DNA from: a virus
Reading direction: 5' to 3' (one strand)
DNA length: 24,840 bases
Virus record (IMG/VR): IMGVR_UViG_3300033146_005244
Span: 1-24,840 of that record
Each line of letters begins with the position of its first letter. Positions within the stretch are counted from its first letter, which is position 1. A model generated the notes under the pieces. It ran no database searches and was not told the origin of the DNA. It was given only the letters and a program-made list of their open reading frames with translations. A program made the translations under genes and the position numbers. Positions 4,324 through 20,683 of the stretch are shown piece after piece.

Positions 4324-4330
4324 TTAAAAA

Positions 4331-6201: not shown

Positions 6202-8019
6202 TTAGAAACTAACGTTTTCTAAAATTTGATTTTTAAGTTCCAATTTACTTTCATTTTTATTAAATTTAAATTTTTCTACATCTTCTTTATCGCCTTTTAA
6301 GGGACCAACTTTTACTCCTGTAAATTTTTCGTCTAACTTTTTAAATATTTCTGTTCTATAAAACTTTATTATGTCTTGTCTTTTTCCAGAAATTGCAGGT
6401 TTTGCTTCTTCTGTTTTAGTTCCTTTAATAGCTGGCTTTCCTTCTATCCATTCTTTAGTACTCTTAAGCTTTGTTACTTTTGCTTCTGCTGATAAGTTGC
6501 TAAAAGCAATTTCATTTTTAAGTTTTTCTTGTTCTATATCTAATTCATTCTTTTTAGCTTTAATTTCATCTCGTTTTAATTTACCTTCTTTTCCCGGATT
6601 TAATTTGCTTTCGGCTGTAAGTTCTTTTTTTAGTAGGGTAACTTTCTTCTTGGCATTTGTTAACCTCTTTTTTCTTAACATAAGAAGTTTCTCTAAACTT
6701 TCTTGCTTTTTTTTGTTTTTCCAAGAAACTCCTGCTAATTTGTATAGTTCTCCAGAAGTTGCTATAGAAGCATGTCCACCTATTCCTTCTTTTACTTGAT
6801 CAAATTTCTTTTTGTTATACTTATTTCCATATTTTTTTTCAACTTCGGTAAAAGCAGCTTTCATAATATCAATAAGATTATATTTACTTTTTTCGTTGTC
6901 TGGCATATCTGGATTTAACGCTATTTGTATCATATTAGCCCAAGATCTCATTGCCCAAGGATAACGATTTCCATTTTTATCAGTTAACATTGAACCAACA
7001 AATCTTCCCGGTTGTCCTGGCCCTGACAATTCAGACCACATTCCTGATCCTTTTACTTTAAATACAGAGTTTGGTCCAGTAGCGTCTGCTATATCTTTTT
7101 CATTTTTTGCTCTCATAGCTTCAATAGAAACTGGGGGTTTACTTCTTCCCTCTCCCCTCATCGCTTTTCTAATAGTTGATTTAGATAATTCTGTTTTTTC
7201 TTTTGGGTCTTTCCCTATTAATTTTTTAATTAGTTTATCATCTCTTTTTTCTTGTGGTTTTTTTAATTCTTTTACTAATTCTATTTCTTTAGAAATAAGA
7301 GTTTTAACCTTATTGGATTTCAGAGCAGTATAAACACCTTTTACACTAGGAATTGCATTTCTAATTATATATTCAATAGCTCCAGTTGTTTTTGCGGAAG
7401 GCTTTCCTGTTGCAGTATCTCCTTTTAGTACAGCTGAAAGTAATGCATTTACAACGTTTGGAAAGTTTTTTTTATTCATTTTTAATTTTGATAGATCTAA
7501 TAAATTATCTATTTTAGCACTATCAACTTTTGAAATTTCTTTGAGGGTATTCGCTCCAGCTATTCCAGAAGTATGAATAGTTGCAATTCTTTCAGTATCA
7601 GATTTATGGCTTACTTCACCTTTTCTTTTAGGATCTCTTTTTGGTCCAGCTCTTACTCCAGATTTTGATTTTCTTGCCTCTTCTCCTGGTTTTGGTTCTT
7701 CTTGTTCATGATGGTCAGATAACCAATCTACAGTTACTCCTGGAGGTAATCGAGAAAAATCAACTACTACAGCCATTTGTTTAGGACTAACATTAAAGAA
7801 AGCTGGTTTCTGATTTCCATATTGAACAGGGAATAATTGTATTCTTTCAGGAGCTACTCCTTGCTTTATTAATTGTCTATATACAAGCATTGCTGAAAAA
7901 ACACCATCCATATCAACATGATGATACAATTTTACAGAAGAAGAACCTGATTTCAATCTTATTCCTGATTCATTAAGTTTCTCTTCTTTAGCATTTTTTA
8001 ATATATCTGAAAAATCCAT
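6202..8019 (-). CDS. DHH-family phosphoesterase fused to long lysine-rich helical region; probable internal head protein
   Basis: Residues 30-110 carry the three N-terminal DHH motifs: H34-x-D36-x-D38-G39 in LYHHVDMDGVFSAML, a buried strand ending in D87 (MAVVVDFS), and D102-H103-H104. A later 'SKVDSAKID' (about 165-175) may be the fourth metal-binding aspartate. DHH proteins are Mn-dependent phosphoesterases (RecJ exonuclease, NrnA nano-RNase, GdpP/DhhP cyclic-dinucleotide phosphodiesterases). Which substrate applies here cannot be told. No DHHA1 domain is evident; the remaining ~430 residues are Lys-rich helices with a coiled coil near 430-520. The N-terminus, MDFSDILKNAKEEKLNE, looks like a T4 prohead propeptide ending L-N-E. 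It is the last gene of a four-gene operon, starting two bases after the previous stop, with GAGGAA as ribosome-binding site. Confidence 0.75.
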   Translation of the reverse strand: MDFSDILKNAKEEKLNESGIRLKSGSSSVKLYHHVDMDGVFSAMLVYRQLIKQGVAPERIQLFPVQYGNQKPAFFNVSPKQMAVVVDFSRLPPGVTVDWLSDHHEQEEPKPGEEARKSKSGVRAGPKRDPKRKGEVSHKSDTERIATIHTSGIAGANTLKEISKVDSAKIDNLLDLSKLKMNKKNFPNVVNALLSAVLKGDTATGKPSAKTTGAIEYIIRNAIPSVKGVYTALKSNKVKTLISKEIELVKELKKPQEKRDDKLIKKLIGKDPKEKTELSKSTIRKAMRGEGRSKPPVSIEAMRAKNEKDIADATGPNSVFKVKGSGMWSELSGPGQPGRFVGSMLTDKNGNRYPWAMRSWANMIQIALNPDMPDNEKSKYNLIDIMKAAFTEVEKKYGNKYNKKKFDQVKEGIGGHASIATSGELYKLAGVSWKNKKKQESLEKLLMLRKKRLTNAKKKVTLLKKELTAESKLNPGKEGKLKRDEIKAKKNELDIEQEKLKNEIAFSNLSAEAKVTKLKSTKEWIEGKPAIKGTKTEEAKPAISGKRQDIIKFYRTEIFKKLDEKFTGVKVGPLKGDKEDVEKFKFNKNESKLELKNQILENVSF

Positions 8020-8021
8020 AT

Positions 8022-8765
8022 TTATTCCTCATCTCCATCAGTCATTGCTTTTGTTTCTTTTTTTGTTTTAGACTTATCTGCTTCTTTAGCAGCAGATGCT
8101 AATTTCTTTACTACTCTAAAAGTTTTTACTGTCATAGCATTTTTTTCATATTTTCCTTCTAATTCAGTAAGTTTAGATAAAGAAAAAACAGAACCAGTTA
8201 CTGACATACCAAGAGTTGCCATTGCCATAACCATACTTGGATTTGTTCGTCTAATTACTTCACCTTGAAGTGCTCTTCCTAACATATTTGTTGAAGGATT
8301 TAATCTTTGATTAATATTTTCAGCTGCTTGATCTAAAGCTCCACTATTATTCATTAAATTTAAAACTCCAAATCCCATTAGTAAAATTGTAATTGCTAAA
8401 ACAATTACTCCAGCAGCTACTAATGCATTTCTAACATCTTGTTTGCTTACTATTTTAAGAAGTTCTGTATATTTTAATTTGATTTTATTATAATCAGATT
8501 TAAGTGAAATTTTCTTTTTTTCGTCTTTTGCATCTTTATATTTTTTTTCTAAAGTCTCTAAAGAAAAAGTAATTTTTTGAATTCTATTTAGAAGATCTTC
8601 TACTTTTTCAAGATTAGCAACATCACCTTTTTTTTGTGCAATCTTTATTTTAGATTCAATTGCTTTTTCTAACCTTCTCATTTTTTTACTATCTTTAAAC
8701 CATTTAATTCCTTCATTTAATTCTTCATATCCAGAATTTTTTTTAATCTCTTCTAGTAGAGTCAT
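8022..8765 (-). CDS. Membrane-segment protein with head-targeting-like N-terminus, 247 aa
   Basis: The N-terminus MTLLEEIKKNSGYEELNE resembles those of the two flanking genes and ends in the same L-N-E. Residues 20-110 are a Lys/Glu-rich coiled coil. Residues of about 113-137 form a convincing transmembrane helix (LVAAGVIVLAITILLMGFGV), and a second hydrophobic stretch lies near 177-197 (MVMAMATLGMSVTGSVFSL). The C-terminus is charged. One reading is an internal virion protein that inserts into the host membrane after ejection. This is inference; no family is recognised. GAGGAG in the end of the upstream gene serves as ribosome-binding site, three bases separate the genes, and the operon order (117 aa, 247 aa, 605 aa) implies joint production. 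Confidence 0.65.
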   Translation of the reverse strand: MTLLEEIKKNSGYEELNEGIKWFKDSKKMRRLEKAIESKIKIAQKKGDVANLEKVEDLLNRIQKITFSLETLEKKYKDAKDEKKKISLKSDYNKIKLKYTELLKIVSKQDVRNALVAAGVIVLAITILLMGFGVLNLMNNSGALDQAAENINQRLNPSTNMLGRALQGEVIRRTNPSMVMAMATLGMSVTGSVFSLSKLTELEGKYEKNAMTVKTFRVVKKLASAAKEADKSKTKKETKAMTDGDEE

Positions 8766-8768
8766 TTT

Positions 8769-9122
8769 TTACTCCTCTTCTTCGCTGTCTTCATCATCAT
8801 TTTTTTCCATTTCTTCTTTAAAAGTTTTATTTAATTCATTTTTAATAATTTCTAATTTTTCCATAGCTACTTTATGAAGTTTATTCATGTCAGTATCTCT
8901 ATTTTCTTCTGCTTTTTCAACAGAGTTCATATTTGGCCTATCGTTATAATAATTATATCTTCTTCCTTCTGAATCAGCTTGAATCCATTTTAATTCTCTT
9001 AAAAGACTAGCAAATGCTCCTATTAATCTTGATTCAGCATTTAATGTTTTTACCTGACTTATTTCGCTTTCATTAAGTTTAACACCTGAATTCTTTTTCA
9101 TTTCTTTTATTATATCTAACAT
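8769..9122 (-). CDS. Small acidic-tailed protein with head-targeting-like N-terminus, 117 aa
   Basis: It begins MLDIIKEMKKNSGVKLNE. The element KKNSG-x(2-3)-LNE is shared with the downstream 247-aa protein, and LNE with the 605-aa protein. The body is helical, with a Tyr/Asn/Arg-rich patch (RRYNYYNDRPNMNSVEKAEE), and the last 15 residues are nearly all Asp/Glu. The highly acidic tail could mimic DNA or neutralise basic partners, but no function is recognised. GGAG precedes the ATG by a few bases. It lies nine bases downstream of the 101-aa gene. Confidence 0.62.
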   Translation of the reverse strand: MLDIIKEMKKNSGVKLNESEISQVKTLNAESRLIGAFASLLRELKWIQADSEGRRYNYYNDRPNMNSVEKAEENRDTDMNKLHKVAMEKLEIIKNELNKTFKEEMEKNDDEDSEEEE

Positions 9123-9131
9123 AATGTTCTC

Positions 9132-9437
9132 CTAAAATACTATTTCTTTATTTTTCATATCTTGATTTTGATCTTCAACTTTAACTCTAATTTGAATTAA
9201 GGGAAATTTTCCTTCTTCTATTTTGTAATACTTACCAGTTTGCCTGATATCAGCTCTTGCTTCTTTATCAATCCAATCTTCAAATCTTGAAAAATCCTTT
9301 ATTGACTTTTCAATAATATACTTCTTATTATCCTGTTGAGATGTGACTATTATAACAAACCCTGTTTTGCTATGACCTTTTGAAAAATCTACTAGTTGTC
9401 CTGTTATTGTTGATTTAATTAATTCATTTAATGTCAT
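9132..9437 (-). CDS. Unrecognised small protein, 101 aa, first gene of the DHH operon
   Basis: The sequence is mixed alpha/beta: a helical MTLNELIKSTITGQLVDFSK start, a beta strand TGFVIIVTS, and a second strand PLIQIRVKVEDQ near the end. The family is unknown. The N-terminus (MTLNELIKS) is related in character to the LNE-containing N-termini of its operon mates, but the match is too early in the protein to be a cleavage site of the same kind. There is no clear ribosome-binding site: the late-type motif TAAAGATAAAGAT abuts the ATG, so the transcript could be leaderless or the true start may lie downstream. Confidence 0.55.
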   Translation of the reverse strand: MTLNELIKSTITGQLVDFSKGHSKTGFVIIVTSQQDNKKYIIEKSIKDFSRFEDWIDKEARADIRQTGKYYKIEEGKFPLIQIRVKVEDQNQDMKNKEIVF

Positions 9438-9450
9438 ATCTTTATCTTTA
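9438..9450 (-). promoter_or_regulatory. Late-type motif abutting the DHH operon start
   Basis: The minus strand reads TAAAGATAAAGAT and is followed at once by ATG 9437. It is similar to the motifs before other virion genes but leaves no room for a leader, which weakens the promoter assignment. Confidence 0.3.
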
Positions 9451-9463
9451 CTAAAATAATTTC

Positions 9464-9513
9464 ATAGATGGAGAAAAATATTTCCTGTATCTATGGAGAA
9501 AAATATTTCCCGT
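9464..9513. repeat. Two tandem 25-bp imperfect direct repeats
   Basis: Units 9464-9488 and 9489-9513 match at 22 of 25 positions; the core ATGGAGAAAAATATTTCC is identical at 9468-9485 and 9493-9510. In addition CATAGAT (9463-9469) is the reverse complement of ATCTATG (9489-9495), so the first unit can form a hairpin. It lies between the divergent DHH operon and gp26-like gene and may be an operator. Confidence 0.8.
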
Positions 9514-9529
9514 TAATAATAAGCAGGGC

Positions 9530-9546
9530 GTAGATTTAAAATCTAC
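9530..9546. repeat. Perfect hairpin in the divergent intergenic region
   Basis: GTAGATT-TAA-AATCTAC is a perfect 7-bp inverted repeat with a 3-base loop. No T-run follows, so it is not a standard terminator on the plus strand. It lies 33 bases upstream of the -35 box at 9579. Confidence 0.6.
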
Positions 9547-9578
9547 TAAGTAAAATTTTTAATAAAATAAGAATTTTT

Positions 9579-9607
9579 TTGACAAAAATAAAAATTTTAG
9601 ATAAGAT
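9579..9607 (+). promoter_or_regulatory. Sigma70-like promoter of the gp26-like gene
   Basis: TTGACA (9579-9584), a 17-base spacer, and TAAGAT (9602-9607). The spacer does not share the GAATAAT core of the four other promoters in the window. A ribosome-binding AGGAG (9634-9638) and ATG 9649 follow. Confidence 0.6.
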
Positions 9608-9648
9608 ACATCATATATAAAGTAAATAATAACAGGAGAAATATTTAT

Positions 9649-10530
9649 ATGCCAACAAAAAAAGAATTAGAACAGGCTACTAATACTCAGAAAATACCAA
9701 AAGCACCTACTATTGATATGAATAAAATATCAAATGTTCCAGCTTCAGTAATGAAAAAAAGAAAATCAGGAAAATTTAACTTTTCAGAAGCTGAAATGGT
9801 TACACTTCCTTCAAAAGGAATTTTATATAAAAATGTTACAAATGATGTTGATATTTTAAATGGTCAGATACAAATGTATCCAATGACAGTTAAAGATGAA
9901 GAAATTTTATCTACCAGTCGTTTTCTTAAATCAGGAGCTGCTACAAGAATGGTTATTGATAATTGCATTGCATCAGATATTGATGCAAAAGATATCCTTT
10001 TATATGATAGTAATTATCTATTGTTTTTTCTTAGAGGTATTTCATATGGTAATGATTATAAATTTAAATTAAAATGTAGCAATTCATCTTGTGGAATGGA
10101 ATTTGATCATACAGTTAAAATTAATGAACTTGAATTTGAAGAATTATCAGAAGATATTAAAGAACCATTTACTGTTGTTCTCCCCAAATGTAAATATAAA
10201 GTAACATTTGTATTACCAAGATTAGCTCATTCAGAAGAAATTTATAATAGAAATAGAAAAAGAAAAAAATCAACTACTGATTCAGATCAGCGAATGGTTG
10301 ATAATTTAATAGTAACAACAATAAAAATTACAGATCCAAATGGTGTAGATGTTCCTATGGGAGATTGGGAAGAATTTTATGAATCATTAGTTGGAATGGA
10401 TAGGGCAGAATTAAATGAAAAAGCAAATTTTTCAACGGGTGTTGATACGCTTGATGGAGTTGTTTGCCCATATTGTGAAACTTCGTATGATGGGAGCATA
10501 CCTATTTCTACTGAGTTTTTTCGGTTTTAA
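9649..10530 (+). CDS. 26: T4 gp26-like baseplate hub / tail-assembly protein
   Basis: This 293-aa protein matches the T4 baseplate (gp26) family pattern. It has a polar N-terminus, then 'MVTLPSKGILYKN' at residues 45-57, 'MYPMTVKDEEIL' near 77, 'DNCIASDIDAKDILLYDSNYLLFFLRGISYG' split across 103-135, and a zinc-binding C-x4-C (CSNSSC, about 142-147). A second CPYC pair is near the end (about 274-277). Members act in tail baseplate assembly; T4 gp26 is shorter, at about 208 aa. The start is fixed by AGGAG ten bases upstream. The stop codon TAA at 10528 sits directly after a TTT codon in a TTTT run, and the +1 frame continues for 57 codons of conserved-looking sequence, suggesting a frameshifted 350-aa product like the two-part tail chaperones of lambda and other phages. 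Confidence 0.75.
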   Translation: MPTKKELEQATNTQKIPKAPTIDMNKISNVPASVMKKRKSGKFNFSEAEMVTLPSKGILYKNVTNDVDILNGQIQMYPMTVKDEEILSTSRFLKSGAATRMVIDNCIASDIDAKDILLYDSNYLLFFLRGISYGNDYKFKLKCSNSSCGMEFDHTVKINELEFEELSEDIKEPFTVVLPKCKYKVTFVLPRLAHSEEIYNRNRKRKKSTTDSDQRMVDNLIVTTIKITDPNGVDVPMGDWEEFYESLVGMDRAELNEKANFSTGVDTLDGVVCPYCETSYDGSIPISTEFFRF

Positions 10531-10702
10531 AGAGGAAAATCTTACTAGAATACAGGAAAGTTTTTTTTACCTCATTAAGTGGGGGTTCTCATATTCTGAC
10601 CTGAGAGATATTCCTGTTTTTGAATACAATAAGTATGTCGCTTTACTTAACCAATATTATAAGGATAAGAAAGAAGCACAAGACAAAATCAATCATAAAT
10701 AA
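10529..10702 (+). CDS. Frame +1 extension of the gp26-like gene (57 codons)
   Basis: Frame 2 is open from 10415 to 10702, overlapping the gp26-like gene by 116 bases. If the ribosome slips forward by one base at TTT(10525-10527)-TAA, the peptide continues KEENLTRIQESFFYLIKWG and then DLRDIPVFEYNKYVALLNQY. That combination (aromatic helix, 'SYSDLRDIPVFEYNKYV') resembles the small ORF that follows gp26 in other T4-like marine phages. No start codon lies inside the plausible domain; ATG 10487 and 10490 exist upstream but lack a ribosome-binding site. An independent short gene is the alternative. Confidence 0.6.
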   Translation, partial: KEENLTRIQESFFYLIKWGFSYSDLRDIPVFEYNKYVALLNQYYKDKKEAQDKINHK

Positions 10703-10740
10703 TTATGATTGATTTTTCAAAAACGAACCGAGAAAAACAA

Positions 10741-10769
10741 TTGACAAAAAAAGAATAATTTGATATAAT
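10741..10769 (+). promoter_or_regulatory. Sigma70-like promoter P1 of the conserved-spacer family
   Basis: TTGACA (10741-10746), a 17-base spacer AAAAAAGAATAATTTGA, and TATAAT (10764-10769). It is nearly identical, including the spacer, to the elements at 10941, 17854 and 21553. Confidence 0.85.
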
Positions 10770-10855
10770 AATTATATGATTGAATTTATAGAATTTATAG
10801 AATATATAATTAATTTTTTATTGTTTATAATAAATAGTATAGAATATTTCATTTC

Positions 10856-10895
10856 AATAGTTTTAATAGAAATAGAATTTTTTATTAAAACTATT
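10856..10895. repeat. 13-bp AT-rich inverted repeat between P1 and P2
   Basis: The arm AATAGTTTTAATA (10856-10868) is the exact reverse complement of 10883-10895, with a 14-base loop. No T-run follows on the plus strand. It could end or stabilise a short P1 transcript, or serve as a protein site. Confidence 0.6.
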
Positions 10896-10940
10896 TCTGT
10901 AAATATACAGTTAATGAAAAATAATCTATTGATTAAATAC

Positions 10941-10969
10941 TTGACAATAAAAGAATAATTTGTTATTAT
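10941..10969 (+). promoter_or_regulatory. Sigma70-like promoter P2 of gp32
   Basis: TTGACA (10941-10946), a spacer ATAAAAGAATAATTTGT of 17 bases, and TATTAT (10964-10969). The predicted start near 10976 is followed at once by a 7-bp hairpin ATAATTC-GTAT-GAATTAT (10973-10990). Confidence 0.82.
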
Positions 10970-11055
10970 AATATAATTCGTATGAATTATAAAAATAGCC
11001 CAGACGTCCAATAACCCAAAATGGTAAAATGACAATTAGGCACAAGGAGAAATGT

Positions 11056-11907
11056 ATGAATCAAGAAGAAACAGCAGCTATGTTAGCTGCAATGGAATCA
11101 GATCAAAAAAAGGGAAGTGGTAATTTTTGGAGTCCTCAACCGGATGAAAATGTAATTCGTTTTTTACCACCTGTAAAAGCGAATGGAGAAATTTTACCTT
11201 ATTTTCACCACAAAGTTCACTGGATAGATGGAACACCATATGAATGTATTGCACAAACTTTTACTGATAAAAACGGTAATGTTCACGAAGCAGAAAATTG
11301 TCCTGCTTGTAAAATGTCTAAAAAGTTTTATAAAATTGGAGAAAGAGATTCTGAGGAAAGAGAAATTGCTTATGAGTTATCTGGGAAAGATAGGTATATA
11401 TTCAGAATTGTAGATAGAGCAAAAGATGAAAATTCTGTAACAGAACCAGAATTTTATGAAGTTGGACCAACTATTTTTAAGAAGTTTTTTGGTATTATGA
11501 AAGGTGGAAGATATGGAAATATTGTTCATCCACTTCAAGGAAGAGATTTCATAGTAGATAAGCAAGGAACTGGTCGTAGAACTAATTATGATAATAGTGC
11601 ACCTGATCCAAATATTACACCAATTTTTGAAGATAAAGAAATGCTTAAAAAAGTTCTTACATCTATTAAAGAAATGAGTTATAATGATTTAATTGAATTT
11701 CAATCAACTGAAGTAATTAAAGAAGCAGTAAATGATTTTCTTAATCCAGAAGAATCTACTCCTGAACATTCAAGAGAAGTAGAAGTAGAAGCTGAAAATA
11801 ATAGTATTCCAACTCCTTCTAAAAAAGAACCTGTAGTAGAAGCAAAACCTGCTAAAGGTGAAGCTGATATGGATGCCATAGATGACATTTTAGGCGAGTT
11901 TATGTAG
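11056..11907 (+). CDS. 32: Single-stranded DNA-binding protein, T4 gp32-like
   Basis: The protein has 283 aa, close to T4 gp32 (301). The N-terminal region carries NFWSPQPDENVIRFLPP (23-39) at the entry to the OB fold. The zinc-binding part includes H51/H52/H55, C64 and C82-PA-C85, and an acidic tail ends DAIDDILGEF. In T4 that tail recruits replication and recombination partners, and gp32 coats ssDNA for polymerase and UvsX. The ATG at 11056 is chosen over the in-frame ATG at 11029 because AAGGAG lies six bases before it. Two promoters precede it. T4 gp32 represses its own translation through its leader; the 80-base leader here, with a 5' hairpin, could do the same, but this is not shown. 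uvsX follows after a 55-base gap that contains a long hairpin. Confidence 0.9.
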   Translation: MNQEETAAMLAAMESDQKKGSGNFWSPQPDENVIRFLPPVKANGEILPYFHHKVHWIDGTPYECIAQTFTDKNGNVHEAENCPACKMSKKFYKIGERDSEEREIAYELSGKDRYIFRIVDRAKDENSVTEPEFYEVGPTIFKKFFGIMKGGRYGNIVHPLQGRDFIVDKQGTGRRTNYDNSAPDPNITPIFEDKEMLKKVLTSIKEMSYNDLIEFQSTEVIKEAVNDFLNPEESTPEHSREVEVEAENNSIPTPSKKEPVVEAKPAKGEADMDAIDDILGEFM

Positions 11908-11912
11908 AATAA

Positions 11913-11946
11913 ACAATCGGCAATAAACTTAATTATTGCCGATTGT
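11913..11946. repeat. 14-bp perfect hairpin between gp32 and uvsX
   Basis: The arm 11913-11926 (core CAATCGGCAATAA) pairs exactly with 11933-11946 around a 6-base loop. No T-run follows, so simple rho-independent termination is unlikely. It lies six bases after the gp32 stop and just ahead of the uvsX ribosome-binding site. Confidence 0.85.
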
Positions 11947-11962
11947 ATTAAAAAGAGGAAAA

Positions 11963-13249
11963 ATGGCAAAAGTAAAAACTAAAATAGAAAAAAAAGAAGA
12001 TAATATTTTTGGAGAATTAGATAATTTAATAAATTCTCAATTTAAAGATGTAATTGATTTATCTAAAGTTGATGGGAAAGTAAAAACTTGGTATGATTCT
12101 GGAGTATATTCTTTAAATTATGCTATGTCAAGAAATCTTCGAAAAGGAATACCAGCTGGAAGAGTAACATCATTTGATGGTTTGAAAGGTTCTGGTAAAT
12201 CTTTATTATCTGCTACTGCAATGAGAGATCCTCAATTAGATATGATAATATTACTTGAAACAGAAGGTGGAGGAAACGCAAAAGAATTAATTGAATTTGC
12301 TGGAGTTGATGTAAAAAAAGTTAGAATACTAAAAGCCCATACTTTTGGAAATTATAAAATTAATAAAAAAAATAATAAAATTGATGAAGTAGCAGATAAT
12401 AAATTTCCTGTTAAAACAGAAACTCCTGAAAGTCTTTATGTCGAAGGAGCTACTCGGCTTGTTAAAAAGATGGTGCACGCTTTAGAGTTTAATCCAAAAT
12501 TAAAAGATGCTAAAATACTTATGATTCTTGATTCATTAGGAAATTTACAAACAGTAAGAGAGTTTAGTGGGACCTCAGATATGGGAATGAAAGGTCAGAA
12601 GATTGGACAATTTTTTAGAACATTTGATACAGCATTTGAAAAATCAAATATAGCGTTTTTATTTACAAATAAATTATATACAAATATTGGAAATATATAT
12701 GATCCATACAAAGCAACAGGAGGAGTTAATGCTGAATATAATCCTTCAGTTTCTGTTAGATTTACAGAATTAGCTGCTAATGGAGAAATAGCAGATAAAG
12801 ATATGACTGCTGAAAAAGATAGAAGAAAAACTTCTCTTGGTAGTTCTCTTAAATCAATTAGAGGAAAAATAACGAAATCAAGATTTGGAACAGAAAATAG
12901 AAATTGTTGGTTTGTATTAGATGCTGCTGTTGGACCAGTTAAGCATTCTGGATTATTTACTCTTTTACAGGATTTTGAAATTATAAAAAAGATAGGAAGT
13001 AGATATTTAATATCAGAGTGGAATGATGGTAACTCTTTTTTTAAGAAAGAATTTATAAATATATTAATTTCAGGAAATGAAGATAAATCAATTGATTTGT
13101 TTCAGTCATTACTTGAAGCTAAAGAAATTGAAATGATAGAAGCTAAAAAGCATATTCAAATAAATGATATAACTGAGATAAATGAAGATGAAGATGAATA
13201 TGAAACTGAAGATATGCTTAGTGCAATGGAAAAAGACATAGAAGGATAG
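11963..13249 (+). CDS. uvsX: UvsX-like RecA-family recombinase
   Basis: The protein has 428 aa (T4 UvsX is about 390). The Walker A motif is GLKGSGKS (73-80), with LLETEGGGNAKELIEFAGVD just after it, where RecA-type proteins carry the catalytic glutamate (E near 97). A Walker B strand ILMILDSLGNLQ is at about 184-195, and KGQKIGQFFRTF and ALFTNKLYTN-like segments correspond to the L1/L2 region. The acidic C-terminus (INEDEDEYETEDMLSAMEKD) resembles that of gp32. The ATG at 11963 with AGAGGA four bases upstream is preferred over a TTG nine codons earlier that lies inside the hairpin. It forms filaments on gp32-coated ssDNA and drives strand exchange for recombination-dependent replication, with UvsW and gp46/47 encoded downstream. 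Confidence 0.92.
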   Translation: MAKVKTKIEKKEDNIFGELDNLINSQFKDVIDLSKVDGKVKTWYDSGVYSLNYAMSRNLRKGIPAGRVTSFDGLKGSGKSLLSATAMRDPQLDMIILLETEGGGNAKELIEFAGVDVKKVRILKAHTFGNYKINKKNNKIDEVADNKFPVKTETPESLYVEGATRLVKKMVHALEFNPKLKDAKILMILDSLGNLQTVREFSGTSDMGMKGQKIGQFFRTFDTAFEKSNIAFLFTNKLYTNIGNIYDPYKATGGVNAEYNPSVSVRFTELAANGEIADKDMTAEKDRRKTSLGSSLKSIRGKITKSRFGTENRNCWFVLDAAVGPVKHSGLFTLLQDFEIIKKIGSRYLISEWNDGNSFFKKEFINILISGNEDKSIDLFQSLLEAKEIEMIEAKKHIQINDITEINEDEDEYETEDMLSAMEKDIEG

Positions 13250-13257
13250 GAAATAGT

Positions 13258-13396
13258 ATGGCAGAATTTAAATGGTATATAAAACAATTACTCCCCTTTA
13301 AAATATAAAAGTAATATTATTGACAGCAAAAAAGTAGCAAAGCATTGTGAGTGGAGAATGTGGTTTGGAAGATGTTTTAATATAAAATGGAGTTAA
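13258..13396 (+). CDS. Small protein, about 45 aa, split by a +1 frameshift at CCC
   Basis: An ATG with AGGA upstream (TAGGAAATAGTATG) begins MAEFKWYIKQLLP in one frame, which then stops at 13306. The +1 frame takes over at LKYKSNIIDSKK and ends with CEWRMWFGRCFNIKWS at 13396. Joining the two after the CCC codon (13294-13296), with one base skipped, gives a 45-aa protein of a form I recall from other phages: a 'W...LLPLxY' start and a 'WRMWFGRCF' end. Either the ribosome shifts at CCC-T, or one base of the CTCCCCTTTAAAA stretch is an insertion (real mutation or sequencing error). Function unknown. It lies eight bases after uvsX and nine before the groES-like gene, as an operon member would. 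Confidence 0.55.
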
Positions 13397-13405
13397 GGAG
13401 ACAAT

Positions 13406-13726
13406 ATGGCAGAAAAAGAACTTAGAGCACTTGGAGATAGAGTAATAATAAAATTCCAAGAAGTTAAAAAAAAGAAAAGAGTAACTCCGGGTGGAATCGA
13501 ATTAATTGGTGCTAGTGGTGCGAGTGAGGAAAAAGTATTTGAAGCAATAGTTGATACTATTGGGAATAAAATTGATTTGGAAAGTTGTGGATTTAAAGTT
13601 GGAGATTCAATTATTTTTAATGATTATAATATTAAACAATTTGACGTTCCAAATTTAGCAGATCCAATAAATCCAATTAGAAAAGGTATTATTGGTGAAA
13701 GTGATGTTTGGGGTGTATATGAGTAA
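13406..13726 (+). CDS. GroES-like co-chaperonin (gp31 counterpart)
   Basis: The protein has 106 aa. The GroES fold is clear: RALGDRVIIKFQEV at 7-20, the mobile-loop region KRVTPGGIELIGASGAS (24-40) including the GGI-x-L contact with the chaperonin, VGDSIIFNDYNIK (72-84) and the closing strand GESDVWGVYE. It would cap the host GroEL and, as T4 gp31 does, help fold the major capsid protein. It is more like bacterial GroES than T4 gp31. AAGGAG lies five bases upstream. It is four bases upstream of uvsW, so the two are likely co-transcribed. Confidence 0.88.
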   Translation: MAEKELRALGDRVIIKFQEVKKKKRVTPGGIELIGASGASEEKVFEAIVDTIGNKIDLESCGFKVGDSIIFNDYNIKQFDVPNLADPINPIRKGIIGESDVWGVYE

Positions 13727-13729
13727 CAA

Positions 13730-15082
13730 TTGAAGATTCTTATAACTGATAATTATTTAGCGATTGGCGACCTATCCAAAAATGAAATAAAACTCATTAA
13801 AGATAGGTTTACTTATAAAGATATGAGTAAAGCAATGACAAAAAATGGTTTTAATAAAAGGAAAGTTAAAACTGTTTGTTTTGCCGACCAGAAAGGCTCT
13901 GCATTAGTATTACGTTCTGGATTCTTAAAAGAACTTTTAACATTCATAAAAAAAAATCAATTATTAGTATCTGAACTACAAGATAAGAGAACTAAATTAA
14001 TAGATATAAACCTAACAGATAAACAATTAAGAAAATATTTTAATCCAGATTTTGACTACGTGGAACATCAAATTAGAGCATTGAAAGCACTTCTTAAAAC
14101 AAATATTGGTATAATAAAAGCTCCAACTTCTGCTGGAAAAAGTTCTATTCTTGAAGCTTTTATTAAAGTTTCTAATTTACCTACATTAATATTAGTAAAT
14201 GGAGTTTCTTTATCAACTCAATTATATAAAAGTTTAAATGAAGCAGGATTATCAGTAGGTATTTGTAATGGTAAAATGGTAGATAAAAAAACCCATATGG
14301 TATCTACAATAGGATCAGTAAAAAAATTATCTTTAAATGAATATAAATGTTTATTTATAGATGAAGTTCACGGAGCTTCTGCTAAAACTTATCAAGAATT
14401 TTTATCTACAACTTCATATTCTTATAGATATGGAATGTCAGCAACTCCAGATGCTGGAAAAGAATATAAATGGGCAACTATAAGACAATATTTGGGAGAT
14501 ATAATTTCTGAAATATTTTCAAAAGAGTTAGTAGAAAATAATGTTATTACTCCTCCTAAAATAATATTTAATACTGTTAATTGTGTTCCTACTCCATCTT
14601 GGGATAGTGCTTATGATAAATGTATAGTTAATAATAAAGAAAGAAATAAAATAGCAATAGATATAATTAAAAAAACTAATAAACAATCTCTTATATTATT
14701 TAAAATTATTAGTCACGGAGAATTCCTAAAAGAAAATCTTCCAGAAGCAATATTATTATCAGGAAAGGATAATTTAAAAGTAAGGTTAGAAGCTATAGAA
14801 AAATTTAAAAAAGGTGAAATTAAAACATTAATTGCGTCAAGTATTTTTACTCAAGGAATATCTATAAATAATATTGAATTGATGATAAATGTTTCTGGGG
14901 GTAAGAGTGAAATTGAAGTTCTTCAACGTTTAGGTCGTTCATTAAGAAAGTCAGAAGGAAAAGAATATGCTTTAGTATATGATTTTTTTGATAAAGGAAA
15001 TAAATTTACTGAAAAACATTCTTTGCAAAGAGAACATTTATATAAAAAAGTTGGTTTTGAAGACATAGAGATTCTACTGTAA
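13730..15082 (+). CDS. uvsW: UvsW-like superfamily 2 DNA/RNA helicase
   Basis: The protein has 450 aa; T4 UvsW is about 500. After an N-terminal domain of about 110 residues come motif Ia/I IKAPTSAGKSSILEAF (129-144), DEVH (211-214), SAT (237-239), FKIISHGEFL in domain 2, and motif VI LQRLGRSLRK near 405. UvsW unwinds branched DNA and R-loops and is needed to switch T4 from origin- to recombination-dependent replication. The start is TTG at 13730 (then KILITDNYL), because no ATG lies near and the N-terminal segment fits the family. Only GAG of the previous gene's end acts as ribosome-binding site, so translation may be coupled to the groES-like gene. Confidence 0.88.
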   Translation: MKILITDNYLAIGDLSKNEIKLIKDRFTYKDMSKAMTKNGFNKRKVKTVCFADQKGSALVLRSGFLKELLTFIKKNQLLVSELQDKRTKLIDINLTDKQLRKYFNPDFDYVEHQIRALKALLKTNIGIIKAPTSAGKSSILEAFIKVSNLPTLILVNGVSLSTQLYKSLNEAGLSVGICNGKMVDKKTHMVSTIGSVKKLSLNEYKCLFIDEVHGASAKTYQEFLSTTSYSYRYGMSATPDAGKEYKWATIRQYLGDIISEIFSKELVENNVITPPKIIFNTVNCVPTPSWDSAYDKCIVNNKERNKIAIDIIKKTNKQSLILFKIISHGEFLKENLPEAILLSGKDNLKVRLEAIEKFKKGEIKTLIASSIFTQGISINNIELMINVSGGKSEIEVLQRLGRSLRKSEGKEYALVYDFFDKGNKFTEKHSLQREHLYKKVGFEDIEILL

Positions 15083-15094
15083 AGATAAATATAA
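15080..15094 (+). promoter_or_regulatory. Putative late promoter motif for the 652-aa gene
   Basis: TAAAGATAAATATAA is identical to 4331-4345 and starts on the uvsW stop codon. Like that copy, it ends about 20 bases before the ATG. Confidence 0.5.
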
Positions 15095-15113
15095 CCAATT
15101 TAAAGGAATTACT

Positions 15114-17072
15114 ATGGCTAGCTTAGAAAATATAATATTAACAGAATTAGAAACAGAGTCTATAAATGAAGTAATTATAGCTGAAGGGTTTATGCCGTTA
15201 AATCCAATTTTAGCTTATTTAACATTGAAAAGAAAATCTTTAAAAAATTTAAAAAAAGTTTCTAATGCTACTATTGGGAAGGTTGAAAAAGCGACTAAAA
15301 ATATTAAAGGTAAAGCAATTTTAGGAAGAGAAAAATTACGTGCTGAACTTGAATTTGGTGGAAGTAAAAATTTAAATTCTACAACTTATAAATTAACTAA
15401 AGAGCAAACAGAAATATTGTCGCAAATTTATGAAAATTATGGTTCTGAATTAATTTCTGAAATAATGAAATTTAGAAAAGATGTATTAGCTCCTTATCAA
15501 GTAATTAAACGAACAGTTAAAAAAAATAAAATGCTTACTTCTAAAGAAACTTTTGGAATGACAAAAGAACAATTTAAATCAAATCTTGAATCAGGGAGAA
15601 GAAAAATTGAAGCTCGTGGCTCAAGATTTGAAAAAGATGATGACTTAGAAGAAAAAATAGAGAAACAAGATAGAACTATTAAATCATTAGAAGAAGTAAA
15701 GAAAGGAATTAAAACAAATAAAAGAATTCCTTCTACCATTTTAGAAAGAATATTAAAAGAATATGATTTAGGAAAAGAAAATTTTGATTCTTATTCAATG
15801 AATGATTTAAAAAAAGCATATTTTGATATCACTAAAAATTTAGAGAAAATTGGTGAAATTGATGCTGATGATGAAGAAGATCCAATAAAAAAATCAGATG
15901 AAATATCAAAATTAGTTAAACGAAATATTGATTTAAGAAAAGGCAATGTGGCAAAAATAGCAGCACAAAAAAGGTTAGAACTTAAGAGAGCTGAAACTGA
16001 TGATATTGATGAATCATATTTATATGAGTATAAAATTGATTTAACTAAAAATAAAAATTTTAGATTAAGTAACGGTGGTTTTAATTCTGCTCTTGGATTA
16101 TATTTTTTAAGAAGAAAAATAATGGATCAACTAAAACCAGAAAAAAGAGATAGTATTTATAGACAAACATATATTAAAATAGTAAATGAATTAATTGATA
16201 ACGCTAAAGAAAGAAAATCAACTTATTATACTAAAATTTCCAAAAATAAAAGTAATGTAGAGTTTAATGAAAAAGAAAGAAAAATATGGGAATTAAGACC
16301 TTCTGTCGGAGCACCTACTGGGAATGTAAAAGATTATATTCAAAAACTTAAAGAAGATGATTTTTTTAATCCTAAATACTTTAAAAAATCAGATAATCTA
16401 ATTAAAGCAGAAAAAGCTATTGAAGCTGGAATTAAAAGATTTGAAAGAAACCTTAAAAAGAAAATTTCAAAAGAAGATTATGATAGGCTTAAAAAATATA
16501 GATTAATAAATAATCTTATTACAGTTGGAGAATTAAAATCTCCTGATAAACTTTTTAAAACACCGGATGAACTTAAAAACTCTATTGATAAAAAGAAAGA
16601 ATCTAAATTTTTGTCTGATTCTGATTTCAAAAGAAAAATAAGAGAAATTGCAACTGCTGAATATGATTCTATTTCTGATTTAAATAAAGCTAAAGAAGAA
16701 GCTAAAGATTTATTTGACACTAAAAGAGAACAAGGTGATGATGATATTGCTGATGAAATGGAAGGAATATTCACACAAATTAAAAATAGAAAGTCTCTTA
16801 AATCTAAAAAAATTATTGGAAATGATATAGCAATGTCAGATGATGATTTAATAGACGCTGGAATGGTTGAAAAACTTGTTAAAAGTATGTTGAGTAAAAA
16901 CTATAAAGGTAATGATGATCAACTTAAAAAAGATAATATAAGATTAAAGAAAATGGTTAAAAAATATAAAGAAAGTGATGGTGCTGACGCTGAAAGAAAT
17001 TTAGATGAAATTGGTTTCTTGTTTAAACAATTAAAAGCTAAAACACAAACACTTGAATATAAAGATGAGTAA
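15114..17072 (+). CDS. Large lysine-rich helical protein with head-targeting-like N-terminus, 652 aa
   Basis: No family is recognised. The protein is almost wholly alpha-helical, with about 20% Lys and 12% Glu. The N-terminus, MASLENIILTELETESINE, ends in I-N-E (17-19), and a second site I-A-E|G follows at 22-25 (VIIAEGF). These fit the T4 gp21 prohead-protease rule (L/I-x-E). The same style of N-terminus occurs in the DHH operon. A structured middle (FRLSNGGFNSALGLYFLRRK, about 318-337) is flanked by coiled coils. The late-type motif overlapping the uvsW stop sets it apart from its replication neighbours, so I infer an internal head protein. AAAGGAA supports the ATG. It is followed after 10 bases by the 255-aa gene. 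Confidence 0.6.
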   Translation: MASLENIILTELETESINEVIIAEGFMPLNPILAYLTLKRKSLKNLKKVSNATIGKVEKATKNIKGKAILGREKLRAELEFGGSKNLNSTTYKLTKEQTEILSQIYENYGSELISEIMKFRKDVLAPYQVIKRTVKKNKMLTSKETFGMTKEQFKSNLESGRRKIEARGSRFEKDDDLEEKIEKQDRTIKSLEEVKKGIKTNKRIPSTILERILKEYDLGKENFDSYSMNDLKKAYFDITKNLEKIGEIDADDEEDPIKKSDEISKLVKRNIDLRKGNVAKIAAQKRLELKRAETDDIDESYLYEYKIDLTKNKNFRLSNGGFNSALGLYFLRRKIMDQLKPEKRDSIYRQTYIKIVNELIDNAKERKSTYYTKISKNKSNVEFNEKERKIWELRPSVGAPTGNVKDYIQKLKEDDFFNPKYFKKSDNLIKAEKAIEAGIKRFERNLKKKISKEDYDRLKKYRLINNLITVGELKSPDKLFKTPDELKNSIDKKKESKFLSDSDFKRKIREIATAEYDSISDLNKAKEEAKDLFDTKREQGDDDIADEMEGIFTQIKNRKSLKSKKIIGNDIAMSDDDLIDAGMVEKLVKSMLSKNYKGNDDQLKKDNIRLKKMVKKYKESDGADAERNLDEIGFLFKQLKAKTQTLEYKDE

Positions 17073-18467: not shown

Positions 18468-20126
18468 ATGAGTTTTAAATTAATTTCAAAGAAAGAAGTA
18501 ATAGAACCTTTAATAAAAAATAACATTCTTTTAAATGCAAAATCAAATAGTAAACTTTTTTTTAAATGTGTTAAATGTGGAGAAGAAACAAATAAAACTA
18601 TTCAATCATTATCTATGAGAGGATTAAATTATAAAGAAATTGACATTACTGATGAAAGTATTTTTCTTTGTAGAAAGTGTGCTAAAAAATATTTTAACTT
18701 AAAAAAATATGGTGTAGAAAATATTTCTCAATTAGAATCAGTTAAAGAAGCAAAAAGACAAACTTGTCTAAAAAATTTTGGAGTTGAGTACCCTCAGCAA
18801 AATAAAAAAATTCAAAAAAAAACAAAAAGTAATAATTTAAAAAAATATAATGTAACTAATCCAGCAAAATTAGAGGAAAATAAGAAAAAACAGGTTCAAA
18901 CAAAAATTGAGAAATATGGAAGGGTTAATTTACAAAAAGAAAGTCCCTTTTGCAGAAAAGAAGTAAGAGAAAAGTCAAAGCAAACAATGATAAAAAGATA
19001 TGGTTTTGAAAATCCTTTTGCTAATGAAGAAATAAAAAAGAAAATATCACAAAATCATTTTATGACATATTTACCTGTAATTAAAAAAAGATTGCAACAG
19101 CAACAAGTAGAATTATTGGATGATTATAAGGGTTTAAGAATTAAAGATAAAGATATTTATTATAATTTTAAGTGTTTAATTTGTAATACAGAGTTTAAAA
19201 GTAGTATACATTCAAGAGTTCCAAGATGTCCTACCTGTTTTCCTAAATTTATTTCAAGAGCAGAAAAAGAAATAGAAAATTTTATTAAAACTATTTATTC
19301 AGGGAAAATTATTGAAAACGATAGAACTGTTTTAGAGGGTAAAGAATTAGATATTTACTTACCTAATAAAAAAATAGCAATTGAATTTGATGGTTTGTAT
19401 TGGCATAGTGAAAATCAAGGGAAGAACAAAAACTATCACCTTAATAAAACTAAAGTTTGTAATGAAAAAGGAATTTATTTAATACATATTTTTGAAGATG
19501 AATGGTCAGACAAACAAGAAATAGTTAAATCAAGATTAAGTCATTTAATTGGTTTTAATAAATATGAAAGAATTTATGCTAGAAAATGTATTATAAAAGA
19601 AATATCTTCTAAACAAAAAAATATTTTTTTAAACGAACATCATATTCAAGGAGCTGATAAAAGTAAATATAAGTTAGGATTATTTTATAATGATGAATTA
19701 GTTTCTCTAATGACATTTGGAAAAGCAAGAATTGCTTTAGGCAGTAAAAGCGAAGATGATGTTTATGAATTAATTAGATTTGCTTCAAAAAAAAATACTG
19801 TAGTTATCGGTGGAGCAAGTAAACTTTTAAAATATTTTGAAAGGAATATAAAGTGGAAAAAAATCTTTTCATTTTCTGATAAAAGATGGAGTCAGGGAGC
19901 TGTTTATAAGCAACTCGGTTTTAATTTTGAACATACATCAAATCCTAATTATTGGTATCTTGAAAACAATAAACGAGTTCATAGGTATAATTTTAGAAAA
20001 AATGTATTAAATGAAAAATTAGAAAAATTCAATAAAAATTTAACAGAGTGGGAAAATATGAAATTGAATGGTTATAATAGAATATGGGATTGTGGAAATG
20101 ATAAATGGGTTAAAGAAAATATTTAA
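18468..20126 (+). CDS. Hef-type homing endonuclease with Vsr-like (EDxHD) nuclease domain
   Basis: The protein has 552 aa in recognisable modules: a C-x2-C zinc ribbon (C34/C37 with C68/C71), five short repeats of the form K-(Y/F)-G-V-x-N at about 79, 102, 125, 149 and 177, a second zinc ribbon (C236/C239, C254/C257), and a Vsr-like nuclease core. The core has E293-L-D295-IYLP, IAIEFDGLYWHSE (303-315) with E306, D308, H313, and IYLIHIFEDEW. A conserved C-terminal domain contains HHIQGADKSKYKLGLFYN. This is the layout of free-standing phage homing endonucleases of the Hef kind. It would cut a relative's DNA near this locus so that the gene spreads. It starts 10 bases after the hsp20 terminator, with AAAGGA as ribosome-binding site and no promoter of its own. 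Confidence 0.85.
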   Translation: MSFKLISKKEVIEPLIKNNILLNAKSNSKLFFKCVKCGEETNKTIQSLSMRGLNYKEIDITDESIFLCRKCAKKYFNLKKYGVENISQLESVKEAKRQTCLKNFGVEYPQQNKKIQKKTKSNNLKKYNVTNPAKLEENKKKQVQTKIEKYGRVNLQKESPFCRKEVREKSKQTMIKRYGFENPFANEEIKKKISQNHFMTYLPVIKKRLQQQQVELLDDYKGLRIKDKDIYYNFKCLICNTEFKSSIHSRVPRCPTCFPKFISRAEKEIENFIKTIYSGKIIENDRTVLEGKELDIYLPNKKIAIEFDGLYWHSENQGKNKNYHLNKTKVCNEKGIYLIHIFEDEWSDKQEIVKSRLSHLIGFNKYERIYARKCIIKEISSKQKNIFLNEHHIQGADKSKYKLGLFYNDELVSLMTFGKARIALGSKSEDDVYELIRFASKKNTVVIGGASKLLKYFERNIKWKKIFSFSDKRWSQGAVYKQLGFNFEHTSNPNYWYLENNKRVHRYNFRKNVLNEKLEKFNKNLTEWENMKLNGYNRIWDCGNDKWVKENI

Positions 20127-20149: not shown

Positions 20150-20683
20150 TTATAAAACTGAACTTGAATCAGTTCCTTTTAAAGCATAATCATATTTAAA
20201 AGTAACTGCACATTCGGAAATGGTATCATCATCATAAGATAATGCATCACCCCAACCAATAGAAGTTGGCCAAATGTAATAAATATTCCATAATCTTACA
20301 ATTCCGCCAGCAGGATCTAATTGTGCTAGAGTTGCTGATGTACTGTATTGTGATTTAAAATACATTTGTCCAGTAATTGGATTATAAATACTTTGTGACC
20401 AATCATAAAGTATTTGCCCTGCTGATTTTGGTCCTGATATATAATCATAAAATGTTGTAGAAAGATCATTCCAAGTTGGTTTTCCAGCTGAAAAAAATCT
20501 TTCATTGAGTCTTTGTGATTCAATTGGATTAAATGTTATTTGTGGAACTGTTGCTGTATGAGCTGCAAAAGCTAATTCAGAGGCATCTCCACCTCCCGGA
20601 ACAGCTGTAAACTGCATTACGAATCTATTCTTTTTTAAACTTTCTAAGCTTGAACTTCTGCTTGTTGTTAATGATATAGCCAT
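20150..20683 (-). CDS. 19: Tail tube protein, T4 gp19-like
   Basis: The protein has 177 aa (T4 gp19 has 163). It begins with a Ser/Thr-rich arm and LKKNRFVMQFTAVPGGG (about 16-32), then PQITFNPIESQRLNERFF, TTFYDYISGPKSAGQILYDW and IWPTSIGWGDALSYDDDTIS, and ends CAVTFKYDYAL. These are the features of the gp19/T4-like tail tube family, which makes the inner tube of the contractile tail as stacked hexamers. AGGAG seven bases upstream supports the ATG. It is the only minus-strand gene after position 9437, and it stands alone between two homing endonuclease genes of opposite orientation. Confidence 0.9.
   Translation of the reverse strand: MAISLTTSRSSSLESLKKNRFVMQFTAVPGGGDASELAFAAHTATVPQITFNPIESQRLNERFFSAGKPTWNDLSTTFYDYISGPKSAGQILYDWSQSIYNPITGQMYFKSQYSTSATLAQLDPAGGIVRLWNIYYIWPTSIGWGDALSYDDDTISECAVTFKYDYALKGTDSSSVL

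Follow-up and report, generated by a model that had tools for sequence, protein, structure and literature searches.

Four predicted internal head proteins with T4-type capsid-targeting propeptides in an uncultured large phage of the T4 superfamily

The prohead protease gp21 of phage T4 cuts after L/I-X-E, T4 propeptides are 7-65 residues long, gp23 loses 65 residues in maturation, and one targeting sequence is reused on different proteins (PMC9026906). The internal head proteins IPI, IPII, IPIII and Alt have the same arrangement as that described below, a short N-terminal propeptide which ends in L/I-x-E and is cut by a protease of the gp21 family; likewise, the same type of site occurs in the major capsid protein, and the cargo is mostly basic. 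A similar situation is found in phiKZ and SPN3US, where several head proteins are cut after x-x-Glu by a related protease, and where the paralogues gp53 and gp54 have identical N-termini (PMC5694885), although several SPN3US propeptides are more than 100 residues long.

The DNA analysed here, referred to as the window, is a 24.8-kb IMG/VR fragment of 24,840 nt (record IMGVR_UViG_3300033146_005244, positions 1 to 24,840) from a T4-superfamily phage, with baseplate hub, tail tube, Gp32-like, UvsX-like, UvsW-like and SbcD-like genes (Pfam and PHROG). Judged from the sequences, we hold it highly likely that four of its proteins are internal head (prohead core) proteins with T4-type capsid-targeting propeptides, encoded by a large uncultured phage of this superfamily. 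The mechanism is already known, and the novelty lies in lineage, tag and cargo. The propeptides (LLEEIKKNSG..LNE and others) are, as we take it, unlike the T4 targeting sequences. The P2 residue, moreover, is often Asn here, and the cargo proteins, among them a predicted DHH phosphoesterase, have no relation to the T4 set. The features are as follows, with an arrow at each predicted cut.

6202..8019, minus strand: 605-residue predicted DHH-type phosphoesterase with N-terminal propeptide (PHROG 4771 and motifs)
7969..8019, minus strand: propeptide of the 605-residue protein, residues 1-17, predicted cut LNE↓SG (L/I-x-E↓S/A in 7/7 relatives)
8022..8765, minus strand: 247-residue basic protein with a hydrophobic segment, without known family
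8712..8765, minus strand: propeptide of the 247-residue protein, residues 1-18, LLEEIKKNSG module, predicted cut LNE↓G (L/I-x-E↓G in 4/4 orthologues)
8769..9122, minus strand: 117-residue acidic protein, without known family
9069..9122, minus strand: propeptide of the 117-residue protein, residues 1-18, IIKEMKKNSG module, predicted cut LNE↓S (L/I-x-E↓S/A in 6/6 orthologues)
9649..10530, plus strand: T4-type baseplate hub protein, context (Pfam T4_baseplate 9e-15, PHROG 150 4e-19)
15114..17072, plus strand: 652-residue basic protein, lineage-specific core gene, between a UvsW-like helicase gene and a 255-residue gene
15114..15185, plus strand: propeptide of the 652-residue protein, residues 1-24, predicted cut IAE↓G ([LIV]xE↓[GSA] in 20/20 distinct sequences)
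20150..20683, minus strand: tail tube protein, context and bait for relatives (PHROG 4542 1.3e-19)

Between the Hsp20 and tail tube genes, the window also encodes a 552-residue homing endonuclease (18468-20126; PHROG 3339, 3.7e-133), which is absent from this position in several relatives.

An earlier note on this DNA had placed LNE at residues 15-18 of the 605-, 247- and 117-residue proteins, and the tripeptide is indeed present in all three, followed by S, G and S, respectively. The N-terminus of the 605-residue protein reads MDFSDILKNAKEEK-LNE↓SG (L15-N16-E17), and those of the 247- and 117-residue proteins read MTLLEEIKKNSGYEE-LNE↓G and MLDIIKEMKKNSGVK-LNE↓S, with LNE at residues 16-18 in both. 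The KKNSG string that two of the proteins were said to share was confirmed from the translations (EIKKNSG in the 247- and EMKKNSG in the 117-residue protein); it is no obvious helix sequence. The 652-residue protein reads ...S-INE-VI-IAE↓G, and here the note had pointed to both INE (17-19) and IAE↓G (22-24↓25). The latter stood, being conserved, while INE was ruled out as the cut site because it is not conserved among relatives. The propeptides, with 17-24 residues, thus fall within the form of the capsid-targeting type, which is about 7-24 residues long and ends in L/I-x-E ahead of a small residue.

The proposed search for more proteins with an N-terminal (L/I)-N-E revealed an enrichment. Among the window proteins [LI]NE at residues 8-25 was observed five times against 1.05 expected (P 0.0045), and [LI]NE[GAST] at residues 8-28 three times against 0.11 (P 2e-4); the corresponding values in a 201-kb relative (G004) were 19 against 3.5 (P 7e-9) and 10 against 1.6. 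The general motif [LIV]xE[GAST] at residues 8-28 gave 5 against 2.8 in the window (1.8x, P 0.15) and 37 against 22 in the 201-kb relative (1.6x), which is near background, and bare motif counting was therefore rejected as a test. The objection that the motif could be equally frequent in non-virion proteins accordingly comes close to being true of the bare motif; it fails for the conserved motif, and it is conservation across relatives that carries the claim.

The conservation test was designed without reuse of the selection made in the earlier note. Relatives, which are metagenomic fragments, were gathered via the tail tube and DHH proteins, and their genes were called by a simple script and then clustered. 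Families with at least four members were considered, and the motif was scored as kept when at least 85% of the members had [LIVM]xE[GAST] at residues 8-60; contigs G009 and G013, which are duplicates of G010, were excluded from the family counts. Only 5 of 44 families kept the motif, namely that of the scaffold and those of the four proteins. An N-terminal match was present in nine window proteins (26 families), and the four proteins were the only ones of the nine to keep it; the other five showed it in 1/4, 1/4, 1/4, 3/11 and 5/8 members. The sites vary within the families as LNE↓S, INE↓A, LTE↓S, LTE↓A, LTE↓A, LNE↓A and LLE↓S for the DHH proteins, LNE↓S/A, INE↓S and LKE↓S for the 117-residue family, and LNE↓G, LSE↓G and ISE↓G for the 247-residue family, so that P2 varies freely and P3, P1 and P1' are constrained. 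The 652-residue family, in which the propeptides of distant members can hardly be aligned, shows [LIV]-x-E↓[GSA] in all 20 distinct sequences (among them remote relatives that a profile search brought in, and one sequence from an Elusimicrobiota MAG), and E24 is the sole invariant column up to residue 33 in 12 aligned sequences. The site is hence retained across homologues despite the diverging propeptide. When 47 sites were pooled, P1 was E in 47/47, P3 was L/I/V in 47/47 and P1' was G/A/S/T in 46/47, with P2 varying; phiKZ and SPN3US, in contrast, have S/A/G/T at P3 (PMC5694885), and S/A/G of that type occurred at P3 in none of the 47 sites.

The window itself holds no head genes, and the protease and capsid protein data come from relatives. 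The gp21-like protease that the earlier note had called for was found there, in the 201-kb relative as well as on three other contigs, whereas the window fragment stops short of that gene. In G004 the T4 head cluster consists of portal, protease, scaffold and capsid protein, the scaffold being named by position and composition only; its C-terminal part is acidic. The protease matches PHROG 207 (3.7e-46) and T4 gp21 (PDB 5jbl, 6.9e-11) and has the conserved His and GVSTRG. The major capsid protein (PHROG 138, 2e-57; PDB gp23, 2.4e-18) carries an invariant (L/I)NE↓AP at about residue 67-69 in 4/4 sequences, which we take as the maturation site since it is invariant and matches the T4 position; the gp23 chains in the PDB, with 521 and 456 residues, fit the loss of 65 residues in T4. 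Another candidate in the capsid protein, WLTEG near residue 24, was rejected as maturation site, as it varies to LTD and LTED. A second gp23-fold protein (Pfam Gp23, 1.4e-30) has (L/I)NE in 3/3 contigs, as LNE↓A, LNE↓A and INE↓D, one homologue thus having Asp at P1'. Judging by these capsid sites, the lineage prefers on its capsid the same tripeptide as on three of the four proteins. The second gp23-fold gene in G004 is adjoined by an adenylosuccinate synthetase gene (L046 6210-7334; Pfam 6.7e-31), and a similar gene order occurs in L139.

The propeptide also behaves as a portable module. The sequence L--E(I/M)K-NSG--(L/I)NE is found on proteins without homology to each other, and the pattern L--(E/N)(I/M)(K/R)--(S/A)G..(L/I)xE gave 14 hits in the contigs against 0.2 in shuffled proteins. 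The mature parts of the four proteins form separate families. Carriers are the 247- and 117-residue families and two more G004 proteins of 487 and 218 residues, and a third G004 protein of 240 residues has a longer variant. The 487-residue protein (L055 351-1814; G004 180351-181814) has a hydrophobic segment, no family match and a HELTH stretch resembling the site of a zinc metalloprotease. The HAD-like G004_119 with LNE↓G is not claimed as cargo, its relative G017_36 having no site. Another N-terminal tag, MK.R.GFVSNSSSSSF, is found on runs of adjacent small ORFs that otherwise differ in sequence, four in G004 (34575-36189, L047) and seven in G016 (24930-27361, L088). A further difference from T4 is that the module is also present inside two cargo proteins, the DHH proteins of two relatives, close to the C-terminal end (G001 at 25487, where the contig ends, and G003 at 4328); the copies within the DHH ORFs L066 3786-5540 and L069 4068-5924 read LIDEIRKNSGMLNE and LINNIRKNSGMLNE. 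It looks as if a second polypeptide were fused there and cut off, and since a C-terminal cut is known from T4 Alt too (PMC9026906), these internal modules may be second cut sites.

Pfam and PHROGs gave no named family for the mature parts of the 247-, 117- and 652-residue proteins, the 605-residue protein being DHH-like, and searches of Pfam, PHROGs, PDB and 50,697 phage records found nothing that matched the 652-residue protein. The 605-residue protein matches PHROG 4771 (DHH phosphoesterase, E 8.9e-6). The Pfam DHH scores of the DHH proteins, 17-25 bits, are below the cut-off of 28.1, so that family membership rests on the motifs together with PHROG 4771: the catalytic motifs HHxDxDG, VVDF, SDHH and DS and the DHHA1 motif GGH are invariant in six homologues. 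By these motifs the protein looks like a DHH phosphoesterase. PDB profile searches with the DHH and 652-residue families gave no credible match, and PADLOC gave none for the DHH proteins. In relative G012 a second DHH-like protein, shorter than the first, lacks the N-terminal site, and in one phage, present as the copies G010 (47588-47980) and G013 (7267-7653), a change of frame near residue 35 divides the DHH ORF. The DHH motifs are kept, with GGH visible too, in two homologues from uncultured phages of 635 and 642 kb (LR745206 and LR756502). These differ in having another propeptide, M..KY.QFINE↓EVG, in which the site is followed by Glu instead of a small residue. N-termini of the type MKHLKxFES are common in one of these two genomes, and about 14 of 79 called ORFs in L134 (LR756502.1 70000-119999), encoding proteins of different length, start with sequences like M(K/R)(H/Y)(L/I/V)K.(F/Y)E, possibly the 642-kb phage lineage's own targeting tag.

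The gp21-type propeptide reading put forward in the earlier note is supported by N-termini that drift except at the conserved P3, P1 and P1', by the matching (L/I)NE↓A on the capsid protein, by a protease gene found in relatives and by reuse of the propeptide, all of which are features of the sequences themselves. The cleavage, packaging and ejection of the four proteins we infer from T4 (PMC9026906). The 17-24-residue N-terminal propeptide would direct each protein into the prohead core, and a gp21-type protease would cut after Glu in (L/I)-x-E↓(G/S/A) during head maturation, with the same specificity as at (L/I)-N-E↓A of the major capsid protein. Once released, the mature proteins, most of which are very basic, would remain in the head with the DNA, and would probably be ejected into the host. 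Without their first 18 residues, six of the seven cargo proteins of the 201-kb relative have a pI of 9.3-10.0, against a genome median of 5.6 (P 0.002 over all seven), and the mature proteins are basic in all families except the acidic 117-residue family, which in this respect departs from the T4 internal proteins.

It is possible, though on balance we consider it unlikely, that the proteins are prohead-processed core or scaffold components that serve assembly and are not delivered to the host. This would best fit the 652- and 117-residue proteins, because the 652-residue gene is a core gene, fixed and syntenic in the relatives examined, whereas the genes of T4 internal proteins vary, and because the 117-residue protein is acidic like the C-terminal part of the scaffold. 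However, a single N-terminal site is kept in each of the four, which resembles the cargo proteins of T4, its core proteins being cut into fragments instead (PMC9026906), and the DHH protein retains its enzyme motifs. A gene for a PnrA/Bmp-type substrate-binding lipoprotein, seen beside the 652-residue gene in phage contigs (L108 9626-10771 and L111 10711-11859; Pfam 1.2e-42 and 4.5e-48), is a possible clue to the host.

There is little to recommend the alternative that the conserved L/I-x-E is an uncut docking peptide which binds scaffold or portal, the proteins then being assembly factors. Conservation by itself does not separate binding from cutting, and the T4 propeptide also has a targeting role (PMC9026906), but conservation falls exactly on the P3, P1 and P1' positions of the T4 protease, Glu being followed by a small residue, and the remaining positions drift; the capsid protein, moreover, has the same (L/I)NE↓A, at which its T4 homologue is cut. 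It is most improbable that these are tail or baseplate proteins similar at the N-terminus through ancestry or chance, for although three of the four genes are located among baseplate and tail genes, the 605/247/117 cassette being placed between baseplate-hub and tape-measure-like genes, the mature parts belong to separate families, the other genes of the cassette locus do not keep the motif, the module recurs on non-homologous proteins far beyond the shuffled level, and T4 alt, an internal head protein gene, also adjoins baseplate genes.

We thus regard the four tagged proteins as very probably packaged inside the virus head. The 605-residue cargo would then, we infer, be an active phosphoesterase early in infection, and our guess is that a DHH enzyme delivered with the DNA would suit the removal of host nucleotide signals. 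A wider speculation, to which we give rather little credence, is that a portable capsid-targeting cassette loads enzymes into the virion, that the injected DHH/DHHA1 protein destroys host nucleotide signals ahead of all phage gene expression, and that in the unrelated 640-kb phages the same enzyme has a targeting tag specific to their lineage; the signals could, at a guess, be cyclic oligonucleotide defence messengers or nano-RNA. Literature searches on a packaged DHH enzyme gave nothing pertinent, and a DHH phosphoesterase as possible head cargo is a type of cargo for which no report was found in the literature searched. Injected proteins packaged in the virion act first in infection, yet homology misses them in uncultured phages; when a protease site is calibrated against the capsid protein of the phage itself and its conservation is checked, raw sequence yields a testable list of cargo.
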